The notes beneath the pieces are model-generated. The model was not told the origin of the DNA. It made no database searches and was given only the letters and a program-made list of their open reading frames with translations. Shown here in pieces: positions 1,323 through 18,883 of a DNA stretch of 23,549 bases (position 1 is its first letter; every line of letters begins with the position of its first letter). A program made the position numbers and the translations under genes. Source of the DNA: a virus. Location: the IMG/VR virus record IMGVR_UViG_3300042924_006037, positions 1-23,549 of that record. One strand, 5' to 3'.

Positions 1323-1564
1323 GCCGCAATCTCTTCGCCCCGCCCAAGTTCAAGGTGCAAATATCCGGCGCGATTGGCTGGAGCGACTTGAAGGAGCGTG
1401 TGGTCAGCTTCAAAACGGTCGAATTCCGCACGCGCAAGGAGGCGGAAGCGGCGGCCAAAGACCTCAATCCCGGCGAGTACACGCAAGGGAGACTTCGCGT
1501 CGTGCCGGTCGAGATGCCGGAGGACTACGATGTGTATCCGGTAGCGGAGCGGACGAGCGTATGA
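1319..1564 (+). CDS. Hypothetical protein, 81 aa
   Basis: The start is chosen at 1319 (MSRNLFAPPK) rather than the in-frame ATG at 1313, because 1319 forms an ATGA junction with the preceding stop and has GGAGGA at 1308-1313 with 5-base spacing. The protein is basic to neutral with segments FKTVEFRTRKEAEAAAKDL and GRLRVVPVEMPEDYDVYPV, suggestive of a small alpha/beta fold. I cannot name the family. Its stop (1562-1564) is fused as ATGA to the start of the long second frame at 1561. Confidence 0.6.
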   Translation: MSRNLFAPPKFKVQISGAIGWSDLKERVVSFKTVEFRTRKEAEAAAKDLNPGEYTQGRLRVVPVEMPEDYDVYPVAERTSV

Positions 1565-2376
1565 GGCAATCATGCATCATCATCCCGTCAATCTTGTCGA
1601 ATTCTGCGCCGGATATTGCGGAATTGGAATCGGACTCAAGTCGGTTGTCCGAAATTTACGCACTATCGCTTACATCGAAAGGGAAGCATATGCCGCCGCG
1701 AACCTGGCTGGCAAAATTGAAGAGGGACGACTGGATGCAGCGCCTATCTGGTCGGACCTGCTCGACTTCCCGTATGGAAAGTTTCGAGGATTGGTGGATA
1801 TCGCGGCTGCGGGAATCCCGTGCCAGCCGCATAGTCACGCAGGATTGCGTAAAGGGGGGGGCGACGAGCGATTCCTTTTTGGCGACTGGCTGCGAGGACT
1901 CCAGCAGATGCGGCCAAGATGCATTCTCATCGAAAACGTCGAAGGACTGCTCACCAGTAAGATGCCAGATGGAACTCTTTGCATCCGGTGGACGCTGGAG
2001 AGACTGGAGCGCATGGGCTACCGGACTGCGAGCGGCATATTCAGCGCGGAGGAATGCGGCGCGCCTCATATTAGAAAGCGGGTCTGGATTCTGGCCTACG
2101 CCAACGGCGAACGAGGACAAGGATCAGAATGCTTCCTTCGCGACGCTTGCCAGATTGGACAAGGGCGGTCGGATTCTGCGTCGGATAGCGACATTGGCGA
2201 TGCGTGGAAATGGCCAAGTGGGCCAGAGCAACCTCAACGATGGTGGGAGCCGTCGCGAACGATTGAATCCAGCATGGGTCGAAAGTCTGCTCGGTCTGCC
2301 GTCGTCTTGGACAGACTGCGCCTCCTCGGAAACGGAGTCGTGCCAGCAACCGCCGCACTCGCATTCAAAACTCTAG
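1561..2376 (+). CDS. Overlapping second-frame ORF, WPTPTA / LNPxWVExLxG family
   Basis: A second frame is open from 1306 to 2376 and overlaps nearly all of the methyltransferase on the same strand. The preferred start is ATG 1561, fused as ATGA to the upstream stop, giving 271 residues. It carries segments I recall from a recurrent phage hypothetical family: SLTSKGKHMPPRTWLAK (about 36-52), FWPTPTANED (177-186) and LNPAWVESLLGLPSSWTD (235-252). The composition is rich in Ser and Arg with scattered Cys, as expected of an out-of-frame product, so it may be an over-annotated alternative frame of a conserved methyltransferase rather than an expressed protein. The fused start and 816-base openness favour a closer look. 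Function unknown. Confidence 0.45.
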   Translation: MRQSCIIIPSILSNSAPDIAELESDSSRLSEIYALSLTSKGKHMPPRTWLAKLKRDDWMQRLSGRTCSTSRMESFEDWWISRLRESRASRIVTQDCVKGGATSDSFLATGCEDSSRCGQDAFSSKTSKDCSPVRCQMELFASGGRWRDWSAWATGLRAAYSARRNAARLILESGSGFWPTPTANEDKDQNASFATLARLDKGGRILRRIATLAMRGNGQVGQSNLNDGGSRRERLNPAWVESLLGLPSSWTDCASSETESCQQPPHSHSKL

Positions 2377-2396
2377 CGCGAGAACTTCTCGTCTAA
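1572..2396 (+). CDS. C5-cytosine DNA methyltransferase
   Basis: This 274-residue protein shows the C5-methyltransferase motif order. Motif I is EFCAGYCGIGIGLK (10-23), which binds AdoMet. Motif IV is GIPCQPHSHAG (81-91) with the catalytic Cys84. Motif VI is ENVEG (121-125), motif VIII is GAPHIRKRVW (163-172), and motif X is LGNGVVPATA (252-261). It would methylate cytosine C5 in a short DNA target. The target-recognition stretch between VIII and X is only about 70 residues and looks low-complexity, so specificity is unclear. No restriction enzyme is nearby; protection from host restriction is the likely role. The start at 1572 has GAGG at 1563-1566 with 5-base spacing. The second-frame ORF 1561-2376 runs through it. 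Confidence 0.9.
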   Translation: MHHHPVNLVEFCAGYCGIGIGLKSVVRNLRTIAYIEREAYAAANLAGKIEEGRLDAAPIWSDLLDFPYGKFRGLVDIAAAGIPCQPHSHAGLRKGGGDERFLFGDWLRGLQQMRPRCILIENVEGLLTSKMPDGTLCIRWTLERLERMGYRTASGIFSAEECGAPHIRKRVWILAYANGERGQGSECFLRDACQIGQGRSDSASDSDIGDAWKWPSGPEQPQRWWEPSRTIESSMGRKSARSAVVLDRLRLLGNGVVPATAALAFKTLARELLV

Positions 2397-13630: not shown

Positions 13631-13900
13631 TCACCATGCTTTGCACGACCAATACTTGGGCGTCGTCTTATCCTTAGCATCCGAACAGTTATGCCGCGCA
13701 CGGAAGTTCTTACGACGCTCAGGATTGTCGCGCTTAATCTCCATATTCGGATCGCCGAAGCGAACCTTGATGACGTTGCCGCTGTCGTTCTTAACGTAGA
13801 CAGCACTTTTCTTCCGCTCTCCCGGCGTGTAGAAAGGCTTGTTGAGCGTCACCTTCTTGCCCTGATAGGTGTTACCTTTTTTGGAGAGGGAGGTTTTCAT
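13631..13900 (-). CDS. Conserved small basic virion-cluster protein, 89 aa
   Basis: This protein carries the segments KKVTLNKPFYTPGERKKSAVYVK (15-37), VRFGDPNMEIKRDNPERR (46-63) and NFRARHNCSDAKDKTTPKYWSCKAW (65-89), which match from memory a widespread phage and environmental-virus family with an invariant FGDPNMEI-R-D-P-RR-FRARH-C--A-DKT-A-YWSCK-W core. The function is unknown. Cys71 and Cys86 are conserved in that recollection. Its ATG overlaps the stop of the 1134-residue gene (TAATG), so it is probably translated with it. Confidence 0.8.
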   Translation of the reverse strand: MKTSLSKKGNTYQGKKVTLNKPFYTPGERKKSAVYVKNDSGNVIKVRFGDPNMEIKRDNPERRKNFRARHNCSDAKDKTTPKYWSCKAW

Positions 13901-16900
13901 TAGTCGCGGCGACGAGATTGGCGGCGCATTTCTTGAAGCTGCTTCTCTTCAGACTGGCCTTCTTCCATCTGCATCATGGCTCGGTCAGTTTCAAGCTTCA
14001 GCATTCTCGACCAGTTTCGATTAAACAAGTCGATCTGCTCCTTGGAAAGCTGACTGATCGGTGTGGTGACAGTTTTGACGTAGGTTGGCGACTGAAGCAT
14101 TCGGCCCACAGCGGATTCGCCGGAAACTCCGATTGCATTGAGAATCATCCTTCTTCCCATGAATCCCGCCATTCCAGCTCCAACAGCTCCAGTTAGCACG
14201 GGGCTGCTTGTTGCCAAGTACGTCGCGCCAGTCACCAATGTTGGTAAGATCGACTTTGAAACAAGGCTTTCGCTATCCTTGGATGCAACAGCCAACTGAT
14301 CGGCAATTGTGCTGATCTTGTCCACGCCTCCAGCACCGAACAGCTCGTTTACAAGCGCGTTGTACTCTCCCGGCTTTTCGCCACCAGCAATCAACGCCTT
14401 CATCTTGTTCGTGTCGATGGACTTCTTTCCATCAACAAACGAGTCTTTGACGATCCGACCGAGGACAATGTTCTGAGCATCAGCCAGAAGGTCTGGCCGA
14501 CTTTCCTTGAGGATCTTCGTAAACTCCTCAGCTCTCTTGACTGGATAAACGCCGCCACCCTTGGACTTGAGGAAATCTACAATGTTTCCGGCAGGAATGT
14601 TTCCGTAGAGTTCACCACCCCTGATGGCAGAAGCGACAACCTGCTGGAAGTCCGTGGCAGTCTTTGATTGTTCCGTGACGTAATCGTTCAACTCCCTGAG
14701 CATTGTGTTTGCATCAGGGTTTGAGGCGATTTGCTTCAGAACATTATCATCAATGACGACACCCTTCTTAACCTTGGACTTGATGTCGGAAAGCAGGCTG
14801 ATGATTTCCTTTTGAGCCTCAACGTCCTCTCCGGGTTGCGCCAGAATCCCCTTAAATCCACGCTCTTCATTCTTCTTCTGAAAAGCAGCTAGACGCTTTT
14901 TGACATCAGCAACTTCCTCTTGGTTTTTCTTCAGACGAGTTTCAGCTCCAGTGATGCGATTGGATACGTCAGTTTCAAGCAGATTTGACTTTGAAGTCAG
15001 CTCTTCAAGACTCGACTTGAGCTGCTCCTCTTCCTTGAGTATTGAAGTGTATTTTGAGGCTACATCTTGAATCTGGCCAAGGCTCGGGAAGAACTCGTTG
15101 GCCACTTCCTTAGACAACTTTCCTCCGCGAGCCGCTTTCGCCTCGGTGAGAGTGTTAAGAAACTCGACTGGATTCTTGCCGCGAATCTGATTGTAAATGT
15201 AGTCCGAAAGAGCTGGCTTCACATTGGTTTCCCAAGTGTCACCGGCCATATCTTTCAGAACGGCAAGCGTAGTTCCACCACGAGGGCCGATGATGGCCGA
15301 CACTGATTCAGGCGCACCGCCACCTTCTCCAATGCTACGCAGAATTCTATCAACGTATGCCCCTTTAAAGCGGCTGATTCCTTCTGCGTACTTTCTGTTT
15401 TGCTCGGCAAGATCATCTCGAAGTTTAGGATTTGCATCGAACGCAGCAGTCATCTGCTCGTTGATCTTGTTGAGCTTTTCCCAGCTCTCAAAAAAGCCTT
15501 GTTGAACCGGAGCATTGAAATCAAACAGTCGGTAGATTTTAGAGCGGATCTTTCGCAGGTCTTCCAATGTTTTCTTTTCAAGAACTGGCTTCCCATCTTT
15601 GTCCACCTTTCCAAAATCAACCTCAACAGTTGTTGCTTTGAGGTCAGGTCTGATTTTTGCGAAACCCTCCTCTTGTTCAGCTTCAAATACGTCTCGGAGC
15701 TTGTTGCCTTGCTCTCCAACAATCGTTCCAGTCTCAAAAGCTGAAACAGGTTTTCCAGCGGCAAACCGATCATCAAAACCTTCCTCGATTTTCTTTATCT
15801 GATCTTGAAACCCAGCAATCTGCCCTTCTATCCGGGTGCGATTGGCAATATCTTCAGCTCCAAGCTGCGCTCTCTGATTGCTCAAGCGAACAATCTCATC
15901 TTGAAGATCTTGAGATTCCACCTGAAGACGGCGTTCTGCATTACGGGCAAAAGCAAGCGCACGGCGATTTCGCTCATCCTTAAACCCAGCAGTCTTCCTG
16001 ATGGAATCATCGACCTTGCGAGTTGCCTGCTCAGTCAGTGCATCAGCTTGGCGCACAACCGACTCAACGACGGCTGGGTTTATGTCGGTTTTCCCAGAAA
16101 TCCTTTCAAGCTCGCCAACGATGGCTTGGGTCAAATCATCGCCGGAAAGACCAGACCGACGACCTTGAATCACGGACTGCTCCAGAACCGACTGAACGGT
16201 ATCCTGAAAGTTCTGAACATCCTGAGGAGACGACCCTGAGAATGCGGGATTGTAGAACGTGTCAGCAACCTGACGGGAAAGTGCAGGGTCGATGCCAGCA
16301 GCATTCCCAAGTTCCTGGCGAATCAGGTTTGCGCGGTCTTCCAGAAACTTTTGAGTGAACGGACGCTGCATTTCACCAGCAAAAGCAGCAGGAAACTTAC
16401 TGACCGACGGTGCGCCAGAAACCGCTCTTCCAAATGCACCGGCACCTCGAACAGTCGTAGAAATAGCGGGAAACAAAACGCTTCCCATTGCGGTACGCAA
16501 CGCCATTTCACCACCGGTAACATCCTCACCAAAAGATTCGATTCCAGCTTGAGCGAGAGATTGCGCGCCACCGGCAGCGGCTTCCTTCCTAACTTGTGCG
16601 CCAAAAGTGGCCTGCTGCGGAACTCCAGTTTCGCTGGTCAGCAAACGTCGAACACCTGTTCCAGTTCCCGCCTTGGCGATGCTGGGCGTTGGAACTCCAG
16701 ATGCAGCAATCTGGAAAGGACGCATCTTTTCCGGCTCCAACGTCTGAGCCAGAAATTCAGAGCCAATACCAATCGCAGCTTCACCAGCGAGAGTTTGACC
16801 TCCAGGGATTAAAGCGGCAGCAAGAGGACCCCCGTATCGAATCGCGCTTCCAAGGACTTTTCGTACACGCTTGTTTTCATAATCTACAAGGAACGACCTC

Positions 16901-17304
16901 TCCTTGTCTGTGAAATCCTCATCGGCCAGCGGCTCGTAATTGCCGGAAACAAACTTTTGGAATTTACGCGCGCTGTCAGGTCCGAGGTAAAAGTCAGCCT
17001 GCTGAACAAGCGGATCTTGAGTCTGGAGCCGTTGCGCGCCTTTAAGGTCTGATCCTTTTACAGCTTGATTGACAGCCTCCATAGAGCCTATTGGAGCGTC
17101 AGGCGTAAACCCAGCAAATGGATCTGACTCTCTAGTTATCGGCTCGTCTGGAGTGAAACCAGCGTAAATATCCTCTTGCGCAGTCGGTTGCTGCTGTCGT
17201 TGATTTTGAGCGGGTTCACTAAAAGTAACGTCAGCAACAGTCAGCGGCTGACCGGCATCCATTTGGCTCTGTTGGCCAACCCCCTGCAAAACGTATTCGT
17301 CCAT
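13900..17304 (-). CDS. Large internal virion (DNA ejection) protein, 1134 aa
   Basis: No enzyme motif is seen. The N-terminus is Gln-rich and contains two copies of a short motif, YAGFTPDEPI (47-56) and FAGFTPDAPI (63-72). Hydrophobic, Gly/Ala-rich stretches lie at about 157-183 and 1015-1049, flanking long charged helices, including coiled coils around 440-520 and 775-850. The size, helix content, paired hydrophobic ends and position after two other helical proteins fit podovirus internal/ejection proteins that cross the host envelope at infection. That assignment is by architecture. The gene starts 4 bases after the preceding stop, with no clear SD. Plus-strand open frames within it are shadows. 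Confidence 0.65.
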   Translation of the reverse strand: MDEYVLQGVGQQSQMDAGQPLTVADVTFSEPAQNQRQQQPTAQEDIYAGFTPDEPITRESDPFAGFTPDAPIGSMEAVNQAVKGSDLKGAQRLQTQDPLVQQADFYLGPDSARKFQKFVSGNYEPLADEDFTDKERSFLVDYENKRVRKVLGSAIRYGGPLAAALIPGGQTLAGEAAIGIGSEFLAQTLEPEKMRPFQIAASGVPTPSIAKAGTGTGVRRLLTSETGVPQQATFGAQVRKEAAAGGAQSLAQAGIESFGEDVTGGEMALRTAMGSVLFPAISTTVRGAGAFGRAVSGAPSVSKFPAAFAGEMQRPFTQKFLEDRANLIRQELGNAAGIDPALSRQVADTFYNPAFSGSSPQDVQNFQDTVQSVLEQSVIQGRRSGLSGDDLTQAIVGELERISGKTDINPAVVESVVRQADALTEQATRKVDDSIRKTAGFKDERNRRALAFARNAERRLQVESQDLQDEIVRLSNQRAQLGAEDIANRTRIEGQIAGFQDQIKKIEEGFDDRFAAGKPVSAFETGTIVGEQGNKLRDVFEAEQEEGFAKIRPDLKATTVEVDFGKVDKDGKPVLEKKTLEDLRKIRSKIYRLFDFNAPVQQGFFESWEKLNKINEQMTAAFDANPKLRDDLAEQNRKYAEGISRFKGAYVDRILRSIGEGGGAPESVSAIIGPRGGTTLAVLKDMAGDTWETNVKPALSDYIYNQIRGKNPVEFLNTLTEAKAARGGKLSKEVANEFFPSLGQIQDVASKYTSILKEEEQLKSSLEELTSKSNLLETDVSNRITGAETRLKKNQEEVADVKKRLAAFQKKNEERGFKGILAQPGEDVEAQKEIISLLSDIKSKVKKGVVIDDNVLKQIASNPDANTMLRELNDYVTEQSKTATDFQQVVASAIRGGELYGNIPAGNIVDFLKSKGGGVYPVKRAEEFTKILKESRPDLLADAQNIVLGRIVKDSFVDGKKSIDTNKMKALIAGGEKPGEYNALVNELFGAGGVDKISTIADQLAVASKDSESLVSKSILPTLVTGATYLATSSPVLTGAVGAGMAGFMGRRMILNAIGVSGESAVGRMLQSPTYVKTVTTPISQLSKEQIDLFNRNWSRMLKLETDRAMMQMEEGQSEEKQLQEMRRQSRRRD

Positions 17305-17308
17305 AAAA

Positions 17309-18883
17309 CTAATTTAGCCTTCCCTTAACACCATTGATAATTACCGAGTCACCAGATTTTTTTCCTTTTGCTCTAGCTTCAGCCGCCGATCCAAAAGAGA
17401 TTTCTGATGATGTATTAGTCCCAGACATTGCCGGAGCGTTCGTCGAACGCATTGCTTGAGGCGCAGGGGCCGCAATCATTGCGCCGCTTGAAGGCGTTTG
17501 AGATGTTCCAGCCGGAATCGGGATTCCATAACTGTTGTAAATGTTATTTACACGGCCCATGTTTTCCTTGATTCGAACATCAAGCTCACCCTTCTTCAGT
17601 TTGATTTTTTCGACAAAGCTATTAATATCAGGACCAAAAAGCGGCCCTCCTTCCAACGCTCGTTTTCCTGAAACCAATTCAAGTTCTTGCAAAATACGTT
17701 TCGCTTCCTCAGTTCCAACAGCATCTTTGCCTTCTGCACTATTCAGCACCTTTGCGATCATTCTTGCAGAATTCAGTCGGACATATTCGTTGATGTTAGG
17801 ATCTTCAAGTATGCCTATTTCGTAGCCAATAGCGTCAGAAATAGTTTGTTTATTGGCAATATCCTCGGCAGATTTTTTTACCAACCTATCATCAACAGCG
17901 TTTAGCTTTTTCTCTCCTGTTGCAGCAGACTGAACCAGCTTGAGACGCGCAAGTTCGTTTCGTTCCTTTAGCAAATTAAAACGCTGATCGCTATCGGTTT
18001 TGAGTCTACTTATGTTTTCTTTGGAAATATCAACTTTCTGCTGATCAATGTTGAATCGTTGATTCATTTCATTGGTAAGCCTAGTGATATTTTTTTCTAG
18101 CAGGTCAATGCGCCTGTTTTCCTGACCGGCTTTTGTTTCTGCGGTCGTCCGATCAAGTTCTAAACGCTTTTCCTTCAGCAACGCCTCTTCCGTGTCGAGT
18201 GCCTGTTTAAACTCAAACTTTGCTTTATCGAGTTCAGTTTCGGACGCACCTTCTCTCGTAAGCCTGTCTAGGTTATCGGCAGAAACTTTTAGCTTGCCCC
18301 TAGCAACCTCAAGATTGCCAAGCAGACCTGTAGTTTGAGCGGTCGTCTTAGCGAGATTAGCCTTCCTCTGCTCTTCAGCGCGCTGATTTAAGAGCGGAAC
18401 GTCAACGTCAAGCTTCCCGTTGGCGTCTCTCTTTATTGCTCCAAGCTCAATTGCCTTGTTGAGTGTGGAAGCAGCTATTGCGTCAGCTTGCGCTTCGGCG
18501 CGACTGGTTGCCTTCAGCAGCTTTGCCCGAGCGGAATACTTCTCAAGATTGTTGAGCATCTTGTCCGCCTCAATCCGGTAGGTTTTAGACTTGAACGCCG
18601 GAATGACCGGGAACTTCGCAGTCGATTCTGGATTGTCGAGATAGCTTCCAACCTGCTTGCTAAGATCCGAGAACGTCTTGAACTCATCAACCTGCGCCTG
18701 CCGCTCCTCGATGGTGTCGGCAAGGGTGATATCACGAATCTTGTTCTGAAGCTCCAGTCCCTGCCGTTGAAGCACGGATTCCGCAGTCTGCTGCTGGAAC
18801 TGCTCCATCATCCGCTTCTGCGTCTGCGCGCGGTCATACAGCGATGCTCCGAGTTGAAATGCTTGAAGAGTTTCGTCGGCCAT
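17309..18883 (-). CDS. Probable internal virion protein, coiled coil, 524 aa
   Basis: The protein is almost wholly alpha-helical, with long coiled coils over roughly 165-330 (ALLKEKRLELDRTTAETKAG, RLTNEMNQRFNIDQQKVDIS and similar). A flexible Pro/Ala/Ser/Thr linker (about 455-490) is followed by a C-terminal module SEISFGSAAEARAKGKKSGDSVIINGVKGRL, a pattern recurring at the C-termini of phage ejection and tail-associated proteins (FxSxAEARxxGKKxGDxVxIxG). It lies between two other candidate ejection proteins, as expected for a podovirus-like injection set. The GC content looks slightly lower than its neighbours. The start has a weak GGGG 9 bases upstream. Confidence 0.65.
   Translation of the reverse strand: MADETLQAFQLGASLYDRAQTQKRMMEQFQQQTAESVLQRQGLELQNKIRDITLADTIEERQAQVDEFKTFSDLSKQVGSYLDNPESTAKFPVIPAFKSKTYRIEADKMLNNLEKYSARAKLLKATSRAEAQADAIAASTLNKAIELGAIKRDANGKLDVDVPLLNQRAEEQRKANLAKTTAQTTGLLGNLEVARGKLKVSADNLDRLTREGASETELDKAKFEFKQALDTEEALLKEKRLELDRTTAETKAGQENRRIDLLEKNITRLTNEMNQRFNIDQQKVDISKENISRLKTDSDQRFNLLKERNELARLKLVQSAATGEKKLNAVDDRLVKKSAEDIANKQTISDAIGYEIGILEDPNINEYVRLNSARMIAKVLNSAEGKDAVGTEEAKRILQELELVSGKRALEGGPLFGPDINSFVEKIKLKKGELDVRIKENMGRVNNIYNSYGIPIPAGTSQTPSSGAMIAAPAPQAMRSTNAPAMSGTNTSSEISFGSAAEARAKGKKSGDSVIINGVKGRLN

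Follow-up and report, generated by a model that had tools for sequence, protein, structure and literature searches.

Two overlapping frames on the same strand of a viral genome very likely encode a single C5-cytosine methyltransferase as two polypeptides, in the manner of M.EcoHK31I, with the recognition domain and motif IX overprinted on the catalytic gene. We refer to the catalytic frame as alpha and to the second one, which lies in the +1 frame of alpha, as beta (Table 1). The conservation of both frames as coding sequence is shown at the sequence level, while expression, the interaction between the two products and the enzymatic activity are inferred.

The sequence analysed corresponds to positions 1-23,549 of the IMG/VR virus record IMGVR_UViG_3300042924_006037 (23,549 bases, hereafter the window). 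Genes for RecT, an exonuclease, ThyX, a helicase, a resolvase and a primase are found around the locus. Two proteins that matched no PHROG, of 1134 and 524 aa, are encoded in the minus-strand half of the record (13900-18883).

Catalytic frame and overlapping second frame

The product of alpha satisfies the C5-methyltransferase criteria for motifs I, IV (PCQ), VI (ENV), VIII and X. It matched PF00145 of Pfam (1.4e-24), with the match confined to residues 7-181, and PHROG 363 (1.9e-43), and its profile matched motifs I-VIII of M.HhaI (3.6e-30). The AF2 model had a pTM of 0.75 with a confident large domain, and Foldseek aligned it with M.HhaI over 174 columns only; in the linker the confidence fell below a pLDDT of 50 at residues 197-212 and 230-251. 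In typical enzymes motif IX reads RxLTPRECARLQGFP. Nothing resembling such a motif was found between motifs VIII and X in the alpha translation from the window. The criterion of a motif IX with a target-recognition domain is missing from alpha and is satisfied by the overlapping beta frame, which contains a TPT cassette (FWPTPTANED) and RLNPAWVESLLGLPSSW, the motif IX that alpha lacks.

Table 1. Features of the methyltransferase locus in the window
Feature	Position	Strand	Basis
Alpha, C5-cytosine methyltransferase, 274 aa	ATG 1572 to stop 2396	+	motifs I, IV, VI, VIII and X; no IX
Beta, overprinted gene comprising the recognition stretch and motif IX (271 aa if started at ATG 1561)	1561..2376	+	PHROG 1008; no stops in relatives; dN/dS
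Twin start: beta ATG 1561, alpha ATG 1572, GAGG 1563-1566 before alpha	1561..1574	+	sequence reading
Alpha motif IV GIPCQPHS (catalytic Cys)	1812..1835	+	translation; PCQ invariant in alignment of relatives
Constrained core of beta (approximate), starting some 45 codons upstream of motif VIII and reaching the beta stop	1923..2376	+	beta NN/NS in lineage 2
Alpha motif VI ENV	1932..1940	+	translation; alignment of relatives
Alpha motif VIII GAPHIRKRVW	2058..2087	+	translation; alignment of relatives
Alpha linker between VIII and X	2088..2259	+	low model confidence; near-neutral in relatives; conserved WPSxPxxPQxxWEP block
Beta cassette FWPTPTANED, putative recognition-domain module	2089..2118	+	motif also found in the cassettes that are repeated in the one-frame enzymes L154-L158
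Beta motif IX RLNPAWVESLLGLPSSW	2260..2310	+	hhalign match between the beta profile and one-frame enzymes
Alpha motif X RLRLLGNGVVPAT, overlapping the 3' end of beta	2313..2351	+	sequence

Within the weakly constrained linker of alpha a WPSRPGEPQxxWEPPRVV block is conserved (residues 214-229, approximately 2211-2258), and it is possible that this block makes contact with beta or with DNA.

The initial annotation of this stretch, made from the sequence alone, had described the two overlapping frames, and the extents and motifs that it gave for them were all present as described. It had also regarded the second frame as open from 1306. The frame can indeed be read from the ATG at 1306 (356 aa) or from the ATG at 1561 (271 aa) to the stop at 2376, but 1306-1560 was rejected as part of the gene. 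Beta begins at about 1561, because the close relatives L009 and L010 have a beta-frame stop 2-4 codons upstream of the equivalent position. The claim that this ATG is fused with the stop of the preceding gene like other genes of the window also held: the ATGA at 1561-1564 overlaps the stop of the ORF 1313-1564, and two other genes are joined likewise by the ATGA at 1017-1020.

Searches of Pfam and NCBIfam gave no model matching beta, and no matches were obtained in an hmmsearch of the PDB with the beta profile. The AlphaFold model of beta was poor (pLDDT 48) and therefore its fold is not shown. PHROG 1008, described as 'DNA methyltransferase', matched the beta of the window (3.6e-8) and all of the 50 beta members scanned. 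Its name implies a whole enzyme, yet its matches follow the beta frame, and the reading of PHROG 1008 as a one-frame family was rejected; this group was apparently built from annotated phage beta-frame proteins.

Both frames are conserved coding sequence

Viral relatives were collected with several queries. Seventeen loci were recovered with alpha and 23 with beta; with a more distant beta 433 relatives were found and 80 of them retained, and the beta of Acinetobacter phage ABMM1 yielded at least 598, again with 80 retained. The layout, with alpha/beta always in 0/+1, was seen in two large lineages, of 73 and 60 distinct loci, and in a dozen named phages and plasmids.

The first rival to be considered is that the second frame is a mere shadow, the alpha protein and the base composition leaving +1 open and giving rise to look-alikes of the WPTPT and LNPxWVE motifs. 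When the window was shuffled 10,000 times preserving the alpha protein and its codon usage, 3.6 stops were expected in the +1 frame and none is present (P = 0.006), whilst the +2 frame has 7 against 9.9 expected. In support of a shadow, the window alone expects few +1 stops between motif VIII and the end of beta (0.08), and openness over this part is for that reason uninformative. Against it, the relatives, with tens of thousands of codons between them, show a depletion of +1 stops that is absent from +2 and from control genes. In 58 loci of lineage 1 the stretch from motif I to motif IX amounts to 17,471 codons, in which +1 has 2 stops, both in a single locus (L005), and +2 has 703. The 60 loci of lineage 2 have no +1 stops at all versus 126 expected over I-VIII and 89 from VIII to the end of beta (approximately 215 in all), and in +2 no depletion was seen (506 versus 340 expected and 530 versus 429, respectively). 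Neighbouring genes at the same loci, which served as control, had 95 stops versus 98.9 expected. Collecting many of the loci with beta queries can tilt the sample toward loci whose beta frame is open over VIII-IX, an effect from which the I-IV part is largely exempt; the 17 loci found with alpha as query likewise have an open beta, including two that carry a poly-G indel.

Selection was followed by classing substitutions according to their effect in both frames (the idea of OLGenie, in our own implementation) on disjoint pairs, 17 in lineage 2 and 11 alignable ones in lineage 1. Constraint was found to switch frame along the locus, acting on alpha over I-VIII, on beta over VIII-IX and on both from IX to the end. 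For lineage 2 the dN/dS values of alpha and beta were 0.16 and 0.46 over I-VIII, 0.72 (0.58-0.93) and 0.15 (0.11-0.19) over VIII-IX, and 0.32 each from IX to the end. The corresponding values for lineage 1 were 0.20 and 0.70, 0.66 and 0.43 (0.31-0.57), and 0.12 each. An earlier lineage 1 value of 0.66 for beta over VIII-IX is superseded, since the diverged recognition regions had aligned poorly, and alignable pairs were used instead. Among 11 close relatives of the window, dN/dS from the TPT cassette to motif X was 0.23 for alpha and 0.14 for beta. Contrary to what a shadow would give, VIII-IX is dominated by changes that are silent in beta and not in alpha (pNS 0.457 versus pSN 0.132).

Ordinary neighbouring genes gave a beta-type ratio of 0.75 (0.57-0.89), and therefore the upstream half of beta is at most weakly constrained. 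From approximately 45 codons before motif VIII onward beta is clearly constrained in lineage 2, the NN/NS of beta in these 45 codons being 0.36 (0.25-0.49); the upstream limit of the constrained core in Table 1 (1923) is inferred from this lineage. This is an unusually clean case of overprinting, in which the switch of constraint between the frames coincides with a known domain boundary.

The initial annotation had left open whether the second frame represents a genuine overprinted gene or a shadow. The computational tests decide in favour of a real gene: stop codons in the second frame of homologues, which it had named as a possible refutation, are essentially absent, and the frame-specific dN/dS that it had proposed gives low values for the second frame precisely where its best motifs lie. 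The same motifs are also borne by one-frame enzymes, described below. The shadow explanation is contradicted by these results and can be all but excluded.

One-frame relatives, start codons and possible origin

In the phage enzymes L154, L156-L158, L161 and L162 the region with the TPT cassettes and motif IX is continuous with motifs I-VIII and X. These one-frame ORFs have 437-669 codons and the order I, IV, VI, VIII, LLPTPxAxD cassettes, RLSARFAEWMMGWPDGW or a close variant, and a motif X of the type IIGNGCVP. By profile comparison alpha aligns to their motifs I-VIII (6.5e-34), and with hhalign the beta profile aligns to them at motif IX, RLSARFAEWMMGWPDGW (E 2e-8), the coverage being of motif IX only and not of the entire cassette region. 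The profile of the one-frame enzymes against M.HhaI gave a match below significance, in the right order, at 272-309 (motifs IX and X), KLHPRECARVMGYPDSY. Beta is homologous, at the sequence level, to the VIII-X segment of the one-frame enzymes; that the cassettes are the recognition domain remains putative and rests on their position in these enzymes.

The one-frame enzymes also show that the second-frame motifs occur outside an overlap. The initial annotation was right, too, in noting that the recognition stretch of the methyltransferase is poor just under the best motifs of the other frame, and this is the key point, the recognition stretch and motif IX sitting in that frame. It had, nevertheless, viewed the second product as a phage hypothetical protein and missed that beta is the absent piece of alpha's own enzyme.

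A second rival is that beta is an independent phage protein, for instance an anti-restriction factor, merely carried by the methyltransferase DNA. The lack of a Pfam or NCBIfam model and the fact that the N-terminal half of beta is its own speak for this. Against it, motif IX is missing from alpha exactly where beta has it, the one-chain enzymes hold the segment of beta in frame, and the alpha motifs lie in the frame before that of the beta motifs at nearly all scored loci. This held for 76/76 scored loci of the first set (alpha/beta in 0/+1, the alpha motifs being in the frame just before that of the beta motifs), and in the second set, collected with the ABMM1 beta, motif IV was in the -1 frame relative to beta at 77/78 scored loci. 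We consider this rival practically ruled out.

On the two-polypeptide reading, alpha would supply the cofactor-binding and catalytic large domain (I-VIII and X), its linker being loosely constrained where other enzymes place the target-recognition domain. Beta would supply the TPT cassette or cassettes and motif IX, that is, the small DNA-reading domain of one-chain enzymes. Both would then assemble into an active enzyme methylating the phage DNA, and assembly and activity are inferred. The methylation presumably protects the phage from host restriction, as inferred from the usual role of phage orphan methyltransferases.

The start codons of the two frames are close together at most loci. In the window the ATG of alpha lies 5 nt after a GAGG, and the twin starts of the relatives are mostly 2-11 nt apart. 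Lineage 1 has a beta ATG and an alpha GTG 2 nt apart (ATGTGG) in 31 loci and two ATGs 5 nt apart (ATGACATGG) in 19 loci. The start of lineage 2 is ATGAATGAGTTGGCTC, where the first ATG belongs to alpha and the second to beta; a beta-frame TGA directly precedes the latter, and therefore no beta start can lie further upstream. Four loci of this lineage (L187, L191, L194, L196) have the alpha start displaced upstream and retain the beta ATG. In the Paenibacillus phages and in Firecracker the beta start is inside alpha. The twin starts point to an independent initiation of alpha and beta, although this is an inference made without expression data.

A third rival proposes a single polypeptide made by programmed frameshifting, with a +1 shift after motif VIII into beta and a return before motif X. 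It would agree with the order of the motifs along the DNA, which matches that of a one-chain enzyme, and with the beta frame being closed upstream in some phages (Spikelee, Firecracker). However, it requires two shifts, beta is open throughout I-VIII with its own start beside that of alpha, which a shift would not need, and in Paenibacillus phage Rani an internal start for beta is annotated on its own. We regard it as very unlikely.

Given that one-frame, split and fully nested relatives are all available, the origin of the overlapping pair should be reconstructable. Mycobacteriophage Firecracker gp6 comprises motifs I-VIII only and ends right after VIII, and gp5, in +1, comprises cassette, IX and X; this layout is intermediate between one-frame and nested enzymes. 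By inference, the pair could plausibly have arisen from a one-frame ancestor through two frameshifts that flanked the recognition-IX segment and compensated each other, Firecracker representing the stage with one shift. In a Megaera plasmid (L140) motifs IX and X are in the frame of alpha and the TPT cassettes in +1, which might reflect either a further frame change within the recognition segment or a broken gene.

Distribution and comparison with known systems

The layout is shared by phage C75C1, by phages of Acidovorax, Vibrio, Porphyromonas, Acinetobacter, Synechococcus, Sulfitobacter, Microbacterium, Microcystis, Salmonella and Paenibacillus, by a Leptospira plasmid and by an E. coli prophage region. 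Across the first set the VIII-IX distance is highly variable and the IX-X distance is mostly fixed. The latter measures 62 nt in the window; most loci of lineage 1 have 101 nt, and L024, whose beta terminates before motif X, has 140. A scan of a genome collection gave one match, a Verrucomicrobia MAG, which is no measure of the spread in bacterial chromosomes; an alignment of 11 distant betas was too diverse to serve as seed for a scan of this kind. In the literature searched, from which subscription papers were mostly absent, the arrangement was nowhere described as widespread in phages.

On this evidence hundreds of viral contigs and phage records bear a C5 methyltransferase that is incomplete without its nested gene, which has been omitted from most of the phage annotations examined. 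The annotated gene, expressed alone, would be expected to yield an inactive protein. The variable numbers of TPT cassettes suggest, moreover, a route by which phages could change their methylation specificity.

Two-polypeptide C5 methyltransferases have been reported before. M.EcoHK31I has motifs I-VIII and X on a large polypeptide and only motif IX on a smaller one, with the recognition domain predicted on the large polypeptide (PMC3404938). The beta of M.EcoHK31I and M.EaeI is coded inside alpha in another frame. The window resembles these enzymes in having motif IX on a separate polypeptide and I-VIII and X on the large one, a likeness drawn without direct sequence comparison. It differs from M.EcoHK31I in that both homology and selection assign the recognition stretch to beta, the large polypeptide not meeting this criterion, and from both enzymes in that its frames start within a few bases of each other and overlap almost completely. 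M.AquI is likewise a C5 methyltransferase of two polypeptides, with the break lying in the variable region (PMC3404938); its second subunit bears IX and X, as in the Firecracker-type phages (L129) and unlike the window, where X is on alpha.

Among annotated phages a similar case is Paenibacillus larvae phage Rani, where gp51, annotated as 'g50 Internal gene', DNA methyltransferase, lies in +1 inside gp50; unlike in the window, the beta of Rani starts within alpha and there is no twin start. With the ShiLan insertion element, too, a protein is hidden in another frame of a phage methylase gene, but that one is a homing HNH endonuclease, inserted as a mobile element (PMC11855218), and not a domain of the enzyme.

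We are also inclined to consider a bolder reading, for which the arguments seem to us evenly balanced. These loci would form a large phage-wide class with domains interleaved in two frames, where compensating frameshifts put the DNA-reading domain in +1, the twin start sets the ratio of the subunits, and cassettes extend or exchange the out-of-frame segment to alter specificity while the catalytic frame just stays open.

Several records at these loci are annotated in ways that deserve mention. Acidovorax phage Alfacinha1 gp46 (L006), annotated as 'cytosine-specific methyltransferase', is the beta frame, and the true alpha frame is unannotated. In mycobacteriophage Llama (L007) a frameshift breaks alpha, and two methyltransferase genes (gp74 and gp75) are annotated in its place, unlike in Spikelee (L005), whose copy is intact. 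In the prophage region of E. coli PCP07014 (L263) the gene is annotated as a pseudogene, alpha being interrupted by an internal stop, and a beta-frame stop is found at about the same place.

The window has a run of 8 G inside the overlap (1854-1861). In two relatives, L021 and L022, this stretch is one base off (AA+8G and AA+10G versus AAA+8G) and the frames downstream are swapped, a difference that could be due either to homopolymer sequencing error or to slippage.
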